Assembly (NCBI RefSeq): GCF_036013745.1
Contig: NZ_CP107880.1
Location: forward strand, 5,084,001 to 5,148,000
Length of the DNA: 64,000 bases
Direction of reading: 5' to 3'
From: Streptomyces sp. NBC_00483
GTDB taxonomy: Bacteria > Actinomycetota > Actinomycetes > Streptomycetales > Streptomycetaceae
How positions within the stretch are numbered: the stretch's first letter is position 1; each line of letters begins with the position of its first letter. Position numbers and translations under genes: made by a program. Shown piece after piece: positions 26,513 through 39,029 of this stretch. The notes below the pieces were generated by a model. The model was not told the DNA's origin, made no database searches, and saw only the letters and a list, made by a program, of their open reading frames with translations.

Positions 26513-27055
26513 TCAGCGGGAAAAGCGCAGGTAGCGTGGGGATACAGCGGTCGTGAGCCAGACGCCGTTGGCGCTCAGCCGGAACGTGTGGCCGTCCCGG
26601 TGCATCGCGCCCGAGTCGACCGGGAGCACGACGGGCCGACCGCGCCGGGCGCCGACCCGGGTGGCGGTCTCACGGTCGGCGGAGAGGTGCACGTCGTGCC
26701 GGTTCATCGGCTTGAGGCCCTCGTGGCGGATCGCGTCGAGGAAGCGGGCGACGGTGCCGTGGTACAGGTACGCGGGCGGTTCGGCCACGGGCAGGTCGAG
26801 GTCGATCTCGATCGAGTGGCCCTGGCTCGCGCGGATCCGGGAGCCGTCGATGGCGAAGCGCCGTTTGTCGTTCTCGGCGACCACCTGCTCCAGCTCGGCC
26901 CGCTCGATGGTGAACCCGTGCGCACGGGCCGCGTCGAGCAGCTCGTCGATCTCCACCCAGCCCGCCTCGTCGAGCGTCAGGCCGATGCGCTCCGGCTGAT
27001 GCCGCAGGTGCTTGGAGAGGTACTTCGAGACCCTGACGACGCGTTGCTCGTTCAT
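26513..27055 (-). CDS. kptA: KptA/Tpt1 RNA 2'-phosphotransferase
   Basis: 180 residues from ATG 27053-27055. The family removes a 2'-phosphate from RNA using NAD+, giving ADP-ribose 1''-2''-cyclic phosphate. The signatures are [17 protein letters not shown] at the N-terminus (about 10-26), then [14 protein letters not shown], and the NAD-binding H-V-H-L-S ([11 protein letters not shown]). The conserved Arg/His residues of the catalytic tetrad appear intact. The bacterial role is unclear, since classic tRNA splicing is absent. The 150 bp upstream contains three DnaA boxes. Confidence 0.9.
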
Positions 27056-27148
27056 CGCGCCAGAGTGCCCGGGAGAGTCTCCGCGGCGCATGTGGATTTC
27101 CCTTGCGGACCCCCTTGGATTGCTTTCGCAAATTTTGGTCCGGATGTT

Positions 27149-27202
27149 TGATCCACAGCCAAGTCCAGTTATCCACAGGCCAGTTGGCAATTCTGTGGAC
27201 AA
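27149..27202. promoter_or_regulatory. Three DnaA boxes upstream of kptA
   Basis: TGATCCACA (27149-27157, one mismatch to TTATCCACA), TTATCCACA (27169-27177, perfect) and TGTGGACAA (27194-27202, perfect TTGTCCACA on the other strand) lie within 54 bp, in the short gap between kptA and the MerR gene. Confidence 0.8.
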
Positions 27203-36178: not shown

Positions 36179-37450
36179 TTACTTGGGGTCCAGGGTGGTG
36201 CGTCCCCCAAGGTAGGGCCGCAGCATCTCCGGAACCCGCACCGAGCCGTCGGCCTGCTGGTGATTCTCCAGGATCGCGACGATCGTGCGCGGGACGGCGC
36301 ACAGCGTGCCGTTCAGCGTCGCGAGCGGCTGGACCTTCTTGCCGTCGCGCATCCGGATCGACAGGCGGCGCGCCTGGAATCCGTCGCAGTTCGAGGCCGA
36401 GGTCAGCTCGCGGTACTTGCCCTGCGTCGGGATCCACGCCTCGCAGTCGAACTTGCGCGAGGCCGAGGCGCCGAGGTCACCGGTGGCGACGTCGATCACC
36501 TGGAAGGGCAGCTCGAGGCCGGTCAGCCACTGCTTCTCCCACTCCAGGAGCCGCTGGTGCTCGTTCTCCGCGTCCTCCGGGGCGACGTACGAGAACATCT
36601 CGACCTTGTTGAACTGGTGGACGCGGAAGATGCCGCGGGTGTCCTTGCCGTACGTGCCGGCCTCGCGGCGGTAGGACGGCGAGAAGCCGGCGTAGCGCAG
36701 CGGCAGCTGGGAGCCGTCGACGATCTCGTCCATGTGGTACGCGGCGAGCGGGACCTCGGAGGTGCCGACCAGGTAGTAGTCGTCCTTCTCCAGGTGGTAC
36801 ACGTTCTCCGCGGCCTGGCCGAGGAAGCCGGTGCCCTCCATGGCGCGCGGGCGCACCAGGGACGGGGTCAGCATCGGCGTGAAGTCGGCCTCGGTGGCCT
36901 GCGCGATCGCCGCGTTGACCAGGGCGAGCTCGAGCAGCGCGCCGACGCCGGTCATGTAGTAGAAGCGCGAGCCGGAGACCTTCGCGCCGCGCTCGACGTC
37001 GATGGCGCCGAGCGCCTCGCCGAGCTCCAGGTGGTCCTTGGGCTCGAAGCCCTCGGCGCCGAAGTCGCGGATCGTGCCGTGCGTCTCCAGGACGACGAAG
37101 TCCTCCTCGCCGCCGCGCGGGACGTCGGGGTGCACGATGTTGCCCAGCTGGAGCGCCAGGCGCTGCGTCTCTTCCTCGGCCTCGCGCTGCTCGGCCTCTG
37201 CGGCCTTGACGGCGGCGGAGAGCTCGCCCGTCTTCTTCAGCAGCTCCTGGCGCTCCTCGGGGGAGGCCTTGGGGATCAGCTTGCCGAGCGACTTCTGCTC
37301 GGAACGGAGTTCGTCGAAGCGGAGCCCGGACGACCTGCGCCGCTCGTCGGCGGACAGGACGGAGTCGACGAGCGCGACGTCCTCTCCACGGGCGCGCTGG
37401 GAGGCGCGAACACGGTCGGGGTCCTCACGGAGCAGGCGAAGGTCAATCAC
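36179..37450 (-). CDS. serS: Seryl-tRNA synthetase
   Basis: 423 residues from GTG 37448-37450, the usual length. An N-terminal long coiled-coil arm (about 25-110) binds the tRNA long variable arm. The class II core has motif 2 ([25 protein letters not shown] split around residues 255-280) and motif 3 ([18 protein letters not shown]). It charges tRNA-Ser, and one such gene lies in this window at 55741. The upstream 640-bp spacer to pheA is rich in DnaA boxes. Confidence 0.98.
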
Positions 37451-38093
37451 CCCTCAAGGTTACCGTTGCCCGCTTCCGGCCCACGACCCGATATCCGTTG
37501 CACTCCCTTATGCCCTATTTGCCGGAATGTGAATTGAGGGTGGAGCGCGGCTGGAAAAGATCCACACGAGGCCCCGTCGGGCGTGTCAAGGAAAACTGCC
37601 ACTTTCCCTTGAGAGGGGCAGACGCGGCACTTCACCTTGACCCGATCCCCTTGCCGTGGGCGGGACTTGGGGGCCCGCTATCCACAGTGATGCACAGGCC
37701 AGAAAAGTTATCCACAGGCTGTGAAAGTGATCTGTGGATGCCGGAAGAGATCATTCCGAAAGCCACATGCGTAACGAAGAATTCCCCTCTCAAACCGCTC
37801 GCAAGCTCACTTTCGGGTGGAAATGCTTCACTCCAAAGAGTTGATCACGGCAAATGCATGGACGAAGGGTGACCTGCCGGGCTGTGGACGCATCTGGGGG
37901 CTGTGGGCCGATTTGTCGACCAACCACCACCTTCCTGTCGACTTGTCCCCAGGTCGAGAAGACGCCCTGTGGATAACTTCTGTGGATGAAGAAAATCCGC
38001 TGGTAGGACCGGGTGTCCAGGCAAAAAGGAGCCGGATCCGGCGGTGGACAACCCGGATCCGGCAGTGGATTACGGCCGGCTAGGGCCGATGCG
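37451..38093. promoter_or_regulatory. serS-pheA spacer with a DnaA-box cluster
   Basis: This 643-bp region, with lower GC than its surroundings, holds no convincing gene. It has two perfect DnaA boxes, TTATCCACA (37708-37716) and TGTGGATAA (37968-37976). Close matches are CTATCCACA (37678-37686), TGTGGATGA (37981-37989) and GGTGGACAA (38043-38051), each one mismatch. Weaker ones are at 37733-37741, 37883-37891 and 38064-38072. It probably also contains the serS promoter (leftward). The arrangement fits a DnaA-titrating cluster near oriC. Confidence 0.8.
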
Positions 38094-39029
38094 CTAGAAC
38101 CGGCCGTCCTGGCAGCGCGCCAGCCAGTCCGACGCCGCCACGAACTCGCCGTCCGAGGTTCCCGAGCGCAGCGGGCGCACGTCCTCGACGGCGACCCCGG
38201 CCCGCGGGTACGAGCCGAGGAAGCGCACCTCCGGGCAGGCCCGCTTCAGCCCCATCAACGCCTCGGCCACCCGGCGGTCCGCGATGTGCCCCTCCGCGTC
38301 GATCGCGAAGCAGTAGTCGCCGATGCCCGTGCCGGTGGGCCGGGACTGCAGCAGCACCAGGTTGACCCCGCGGATGGCGAACTCTTGGAGCAGCTCCATC
38401 AGCCCACCGGGGTGGTCCTCGCGCTGCCAGATGACGACCGAGGTCTTGTCCGCGCCGGTGGGCGCCGCGGGCCGGGCCGGCCTGCCGACCAGGACGAAGC
38501 GCGTCTGCGCGTTCTCCGCGTCGTGGATCTCGGTGACCAGTGGCACGAGCCCGTACTTCTCGGCCGCGAACTCGCCGGCGAACGCGGCGTCGTAGCGCCC
38601 CTCCTGTACGAGACGCGCGCCGTCGGCGTTCGACGCCGCGGACTCCCAGATCACGTCCTCGGCCAGGTTGGCCTTCATCCACTTGCGCACCTGCGGCTGG
38701 GCGGCCGGGTGCGCGGTGACCGTCTTGATGTCGGAGATCGCGGTGCCGGGGCGGACGAGCAGCGCGAAGGTGATGTCGAGCAGCACCTCGCGGTAGATCA
38801 TCAGCGGCTCGCCGGCGACCAGCTCGTCGAGGGTCGTGGTGATGCCGCCCTCGACGGAGTTCTCGATCGGCACGAACGCGGCCTCGGCCTTGCCACTGCG
38901 GACGGCGTCGAGCGCCGCGGGCACGGACACCACGGGGACGAGTTCCCGGGTGGCCGTCTCCGGGAGCGTGCGCAGGGCGACTTCGGTGAAGGTGCCCTCG
39001 GGGCCGAGATACACGTAGCTGGCTGGCAT
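38094..39029 (-). CDS. pheA: Prephenate dehydratase
   Basis: 311 residues. Converts prephenate to phenylpyruvate in phenylalanine synthesis. The PDT domain has YLGPEGTFTEVAL at the start (about 6-18), VPIENSVEGG (about 52-61) and the catalytic TRF motif in AQTRFVLVG (about 172-175). A C-terminal ACT domain (about 195-290, with the GGLMELL and ESRP-like LLQSRPTGTG motif) gives Phe feedback control. It is monofunctional, without a chorismate mutase domain. The ATG 39029 start is followed directly by the fold. Confidence 0.97.
   Translation of the reverse strand: MPASYVYLGPEGTFTEVALRTLPETATRELVPVVSVPAALDAVRSGKAEAAFVPIENSVEGGITTTLDELVAGEPLMIYREVLLDITFALLVRPGTAISDIKTVTAHPAAQPQVRKWMKANLAEDVIWESAASNADGARLVQEGRYDAAFAGEFAAEKYGLVPLVTEIHDAENAQTRFVLVGRPARPAAPTGADKTSVVIWQREDHPGGLMELLQEFAIRGVNLVLLQSRPTGTGIGDYCFAIDAEGHIADRRVAEALMGLKRACPEVRFLGSYPRAGVAVEDVRPLRSGTSDGEFVAASDWLARCQDGRF

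Follow-up and report, generated by a model that had tools for sequence, protein, structure and literature searches.

A conserved near-origin cluster of putative DnaA-binding sites between serS and pheA in Streptomyces, with its two strong boxes in helical phase

The closest described systems to the locus in this report come from Streptomyces coelicolor, Escherichia coli, and Bacillus subtilis. The S. coelicolor DnaA-box cluster D78 has a higher affinity for DnaA than does oriC, and the “78” of its name is that of a cosmid, not a number of kilobases. Smulczyk-Krawczyszyn et al., in 2006, reportedly found that removal of D78 increases initiation and that extra copies reduce it. Passages in three papers describe an S. 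coelicolor cluster of DnaA boxes that represses untimely initiation (PMC5742627, PMC4585315, PMC10950094); like our locus, that cluster is near oriC (PMC5742627), and it belongs to the same genus. For E. coli, the part of PMC5835720 that deals with these elements gives datA as having two consensus boxes and four boxes with one misfit, as in the spacer described below, and as requiring boxes 2 and 3 with the IHF site between them; DARS1 and DARS2 are presented there as small groups of DnaA boxes whose orientation matters. datA differs in that it needs IHF and drives the hydrolysis of ATP-DnaA. The DARS elements differ in raising ATP-DnaA and promoting initiation, the opposite of the effect reported for the S. 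coelicolor cluster. The DnaA-box clusters of B. subtilis, likened here by description, are also among the closest known systems.

The locus lies in a 64,000-nucleotide stretch of the chromosome of Streptomyces sp. NBC_00483, here called the window. The box consensus used is TTRTCCACA, and a “perfect” box is TTATCCACA. The features in and around the spacer are as follows, in window coordinates.

36179..37450, minus strand: serS, seryl-tRNA synthetase (Pfam PF00587 and PF02403)
37451..38093, no strand: 643-bp serS-pheA spacer with the DnaA-box locus (genome coordinates 5121451-5122093)
37678..37686, plus strand: box F, CTATCCACA, 30 bp past E (box with ≤2 mismatches at +29 to +32 in 170/182 spacers)
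37708..37716, plus strand: box E, TTATCCACA, the second arm's strong box, in the extended form AGTTATCCACAGG, 260 bp from B
37733..37741, minus strand: box D, GCATCCACA, forming a convergent pair with E, 25 bp apart (box with ≤2 mismatches at E-25 in 171/182)
37883..37891, minus strand: GCGTCCACA, in the putative loop, moderately conserved in the alignment
37913..37921, plus strand: box G, TTGTCGACC, a misfit box 30 bp past C (box with ≤2 mismatches at B+55 in 138/182)
37943..37951, plus strand: box C, TTGTCCCCA, forming a convergent pair with B (offset of 25 in 164/182 spacers)
37968..37976, minus strand: box B, TTATCCACA, the first arm's strong box, in the extended form AGTTATCCACAGG, box columns 98-100% conserved
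37981..37989, minus strand: box A, TCATCCACA, 13 bp before B (box with ≤2 mismatches at -12/-13 in 141/182 spacers)
38031..38063, no strand: inverted repeat (11 bp, perfect) that follows pheA, poorly conserved and a possible terminator hairpin
38094..39029, minus strand: pheA, prephenate dehydratase (Pfam PF00800 and ACT)

The initial annotation had noted a dense group of DnaA boxes between serS and pheA, and the closer analysis confirms it: six boxes lie within 395 bp, between genes that Pfam identifies, and the next-densest site in the window outside the spacer (27149-27202) has three. The two perfect boxes that it had placed at 37708 (+) and 37968 (-) are both present, and its “at least three” one-mismatch boxes are in fact four, at 37678, 37943, 37981, and 38043 (TTGTCCACC). 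The last of these occupies the loop of the 38031-38063 inverted repeat and is probably incidental, because it sits in a repeat loop within poorly conserved sequence. Boxes with two mismatches and some conservation, absent from the initial annotation, are found at 37733, 37913, and, more weakly, 37883. The spacer is lower in GC, as had also been claimed (58.6%, against 70.2% for the window), and has a single match in its own genome. The TCCACA core occurs seven times in it, compared with 0.34 expected from the window frequency. Chromosome-wide, TTRTCCACA has 55 matches, compared to 17 for a reversed control. The high-affinity DnaA box of S. coelicolor is given in the relevant part of PMC4285127 as TTGTCCACA; scored against it, both “perfect” boxes have one mismatch, and 20 sites in the window match it with at most one mismatch, compared to 5.6 in shuffles. 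A promoter and terminator scan found nothing, and an RNA element in the spacer was rejected, the only match being a subthreshold one to naRNA4 (38030-38105; 22.5 bits versus 59.5).

In the 10.24-Mb chromosome, oriC is marked by dnaA (ATPase domain at 5040636-5041121) and a box-rich neighbor at 5039342-5039914, which has 11 boxes with one perfect, compared to two perfect boxes in the spacer. The spacer is ~82 kb from this oriC. It is a box cluster in noncoding DNA near oriC, as a D78-type locus should be, and adjoins neither dnaA nor dnaN, as a part of oriC would. In 58 Streptomyces genomes that have pheA and dnaA on the same contig, the two are 76 to 138 kb apart (median, 87.6), and in 46 of the 58 the distance is within 75 to 100 kb; this set consists of 60 genomes minus G026, G053, and G115, in which dnaA is at the sequence end, plus G000. 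In other genera of the Streptomycetaceae the serS-dnaA distance is ~64 to 170 kb, as read from the 22 genomes, out of 25, in which a single contig holds both. Nearness to oriC, one of the checks attached to the D78-type reading in the initial annotation, holds here and in those 58 genomes, although 78 kb itself is unusable as a test of identity and was dropped as one, since the number is that of a cosmid. On the opposite side, ~18 kb beyond oriC, three perfect boxes lie within 210 bp (G000:C1:5020979-5021188); they may correspond to another of the S. coelicolor clusters.

The boxes are conserved throughout the genus. The locus was taken from 110 genomes of a set of 121 (all but G007, G009, G035, G036, G047, G071, G083, G109, G110, G117, and G118). 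The comparison set of 182 distinct Streptomyces spacers leaves out L136, which has no serS, L034, which is the window itself, and seven identical spacers, and near-identical ones may remain in it. All 182 have at least two perfect boxes, with a mean of 3.2 (two in 21 spacers, three in 101, four in 59, and five in one), against 0.007 in dinucleotide-shuffled spacers. In the other genera of the family, pheA is within 1.5 kb of serS in 38 of 49 genomes examined, and all 38 of these spacers likewise have at least two perfect boxes. Relatives thus bear out the conservation that the D78-type reading called for. The remaining 11 genomes lack perfect boxes up to 900 bp from serS, and two of them have one one-mismatch box there. 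In five (L316-L319 and L321) serS is farther away and the boxes lie between it and the end of pheA, and in the other six (L311-L315 and L320, of g85/g82) they are on the other side of pheA, with the perfect ones ~1 kb off. Eleven genomes of other families, picked from the 177 of a class sample, have no box with ≤1 mismatch in the spacer or in the 900 bp before serS, and in five of these serS and pheA are nonetheless adjacent. This boxless junction suggests that the cluster arose in a junction older than the family; in this small outgroup sample, the cluster appears to be the younger of the two. By these comparisons the spacer would hold an old, conserved cluster of likely DnaA binding sites. 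Kept family-wide, closer to the consensus than the boxes of its own oriC, and near the origin, the boxes are consistent with a DnaA reservoir.

The boxes are arranged in two arms. Read from pheA to serS, with signs for orientation, the order is A+ 13 B+ 25 C- 30 G- ... D+ 25 E- 30/31 F-, with F at 30 or 31 bp from E in 161/182 spacers. B and E were selected as two perfect boxes 180 to 330 bp apart, a pair present in 182/182 spacers; the selection itself accounts in part for their presence, but not for the peaks in their distance. In the window the two sit in a 20-nucleotide inverted repeat that is 90% complementary. The weaker boxes are also kept. The TCCACA core of D is 98-99% conserved, and the columns of G are 84-95% conserved, apart from the last (51%). 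In C, the misfit letter (C at position 7) is kept in 94%, from which it seems that this box is selected as a weak box, or else binds something else. A genome-wide search for the convergent pair TTRTCCACA-N16-TGKGGAYAA with ≤2 mismatches gave three sites, two of them in the spacer and the third at 27169-27202, and the reversed control gave none.

The distance between B and E varies in steps of about 10.5 bp. In 180 of the 182 spacers it falls in narrow peaks, at 249-250, 257-262, 267-271, 278-281, 289-291, 301-303, and 312 bp, which were drawn after seeing the data; the two others are at 273. Tree-independent pairs were taken as disjoint pairs differing by 4 to 45 bp on a FastTree tree from 580 nucleotides of serS, and a difference was called in phase if it lay no more than 2 from some multiple of 10.5, for which chance is 0.43 if differences are even. 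For B-E, 20.2 of 28 pairs are in phase (p 0.002 for 20/28). The control intervals gave 19.8/46.4 (pheA stop to B), 14.2/28 (Dyp-peroxidase stop to pheA start; 109 loci), and 6.1/21 (serS stop to HAD start; 80 loci). Bins fixed beforehand were then applied to 108 rows among the matches listed (276 of 392 genomes matched; handles above G120). With relatedness ignored, 106 of these 108 rows are in phase, and of those outside the modal class, 23 of 25 are (chance, 0.36). Exact contig coordinates show that 15 of the 108 are discovery loci, and five more (G219, G256, G265, G291, and G300) had been seen earlier; with those 20 rows removed, and again ignoring relatedness, the bins hold 86 of 88 among the matches listed, including 16 of the 18 that differ from the modal class. 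The B-E gaps in five aligned close pairs fall at differing places, and one gap on the serS side is a tandem duplication; anchor-by-anchor mapping of indels was noisy. Among spacers of other genera, only 14 of the 21 distances that could be read fall in the Streptomyces bins (15 of 31 for all values), two distances are out of phase at 274, and ten further spacers, with 217 to 248 bp, are arranged differently. In Streptomyces, these results show that the strong boxes are held in helical phase over 249 to 312 bp. The paired-triad architecture and the phasing were both found in this analysis.

A loop or ordered filament requires phase between its arms, and the phasing of B and E therefore suggests a looped DnaA nucleoprotein. 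We consider it probable that the spacer is a regulatory locus that binds DnaA and is an ortholog of the S. coelicolor cluster (D78-type), with two phased arms that would be joined in a loop. DnaA would load first on B and E and then spread to the weaker partner boxes. Contacts between DnaA molecules, by way of domain I dimers and a long domain II, would hold the arms face to face and close a loop of ~260 bp, and the complex may bind DnaA away from oriC and so titrate it. At ~82 kb from oriC the locus would be duplicated soon after initiation, and the doubled sites would then lower free DnaA and delay reinitiation. A datA-like action on the nucleotide state of DnaA is a guess that could be added. 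The consulted part of PMC13270200 gives domain I dimers for the DnaA of Actinomycetes, and for S. lividans DnaA a domain II of >200 residues, proposed as a linker of distant oriC box clusters. In the DnaA of our strain the ATPase domain begins at residue 347 of a 686-amino-acid frame, leaving up to 346 residues before it (the start is uncertain), and Pfam recognized no domain I in this frame. Replication timing is poorly known in these linear, multigenomic actinomycetes, and a conserved DnaA locus with helically phased arms is a specific, testable mechanical hypothesis.

The same sequences could instead serve as a passive DnaA sponge that acts by the number and affinity of its boxes, with no loop, the phasing being due to other proteins on the conserved interior. 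Several interior blocks without boxes are indeed conserved, and ScbR2 binds the region in S. coelicolor, according to the part of PMC4595836 that treats it. The strictest spacings, however, are those from box to box (25, 30, and 13 bp), and it is the two strong boxes that stay in phase with each other, so that we regard a simple sponge as rather unlikely. Further conserved blocks without canonical boxes are seen in the window at 37740-37930; in consensus form they are GTCGACAAATCG, TTGATCAA, CATTTCCACCCGAAAGTG, and GGCTTTCGGAATGATCA.

Two features bear on the serS side and on the interior.

37451..37493, minus strand: conserved serS leader or promoter block (alignment), its distance from E stepping by ~11 bp
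37848..37875, minus strand: block that aligns to the predicted ScbR2 site of S. coelicolor serS, 20/28 bases, near control level when taken alone

The distance from E to the serS start steps by ~11 bp across the genus, with 34.9 of 43.5 tree-independent pairs in phase (p about 3e-7 for 35/43), which hints at a promoter role. A promoter as the cause of these steps was left without support, an exact TTGACA following E in only 49/182 spacers. An operator reading would have DnaA regulate serS transcription from these boxes, coupling translation capacity to replication. The boxes are upstream of serS, and the stepping of the E-serS distance in turns is as that reading would have it. Where extra DNA is present, on the other hand, the cluster stays at the pheA end, at least ~0.9 kb from serS (L281, L285, L288, L296, L316-L319, and L321). 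Furthermore, S. coelicolor serS is at 0.947-fold without ScbR2 in Table 2 of PMC4595836, which is a test of ScbR2 and not of DnaA. We judge an operator for serS to be unlikely.

Binding of ScbR2 to the S. coelicolor sco3961/serS promoter is described, by ChIP-seq and EMSA, in the same portion of PMC4595836, where the 28-base site is the authors' prediction; pheA of that species is SCO3962, as stated in a passage of PMC6585502. In four other spacers the predicted site is matched at 27/28 bases, at B+101, between the arms. At ≤10 mismatches it is found in 100/182 spacers and lies between B and E in 98 of them; the remaining 82 are at the level of the reversed control (16/182 at ≤10 mismatches). 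If this site acts on the locus, it would tie antibiotic and butyrolactone signaling directly to replication control. From the 27/28 matches between the arms, S. coelicolor very probably carries the same locus upstream of serS. That the serS-pheA spacer is the D78 cluster of that species is likely, as our inference. The paired triads and their phasing are known from the present spacers; the D78-type reading of the initial annotation draws its support from distance and conservation. A literature search whose reach stopped short of the original 2006 description found no D78 box map; in two of its hits “D78” denotes a residue and a page number.

A second triad lies upstream of a KptA-family gene, ~10.5 kb nearer oriC than the serS-pheA cluster.

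26513..27091, minus strand: KptA/Tpt1-type RNA 2'-phosphotransferase, downstream of the second triad (Pfam PF01885)
27149..27202, no strand: second DnaA triad, TGATCCACA (plus, 27149), TTATCCACA (plus, 27169), and TTGTCCACA (minus, 27194), the last two 25 bp apart

This triad is present in 9/9 relatives chosen for having the pair (L322-L330), with TGGTCCACA as the first box in L330, and a KptA homolog is beside the second pair in 5/5 loci (L245-L249). Such a pair with ≤1 mismatch, 8.9 to 14.8 kb from the serS-pheA pair, is found in 13/19 Streptomyces of the class sample, and a box pair at ≤1 mismatch in 57/60 genomes. The interior of the kptA-side triad resembles AATTGGCGATTC in many relatives among the matches listed. 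A more elaborate version of the looped DnaA complex would make it a phase-locked, switchable nucleoprotein rather than a sponge, used for DnaA hydrolysis or storage, able to respond to a developmental signal by way of the ScbR2 site in the loop, and paired with the kptA triad ~9 to 15 kb nearer oriC. We put this forward tentatively, as a possibility with the balance somewhat against it.

In genus g30 of another family, f15 (L231-L240), the 25-bp convergent pair is beside dnaA or dnaN in 5/5 genomes; in L231, Pfam confirmed dnaN, and dnaA was outside that scan. The presence of this same pair within oriC there, together with the many boxes and the lower GC of our spacer, might be taken to indicate a second ori-like element, that is, an auxiliary origin instead of a regulator. 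We think this very improbable, since an oriC with boxes of its own is beside dnaA ~82 kb away and the spacer cluster is flanked by serS and pheA. A chance build-up of TCCACA words in a spacer that is AT-richer than the window is refuted by the shuffles, the fixed spacings, and the family-wide conservation across genomes. In genus g30 the pair recurs beside a second DnaN-like gene in 5/5 genomes; this second pair has a DUF2786 gene on its other side in L232 and L238 and is ~12 to 26 kb from serS in three genomes.
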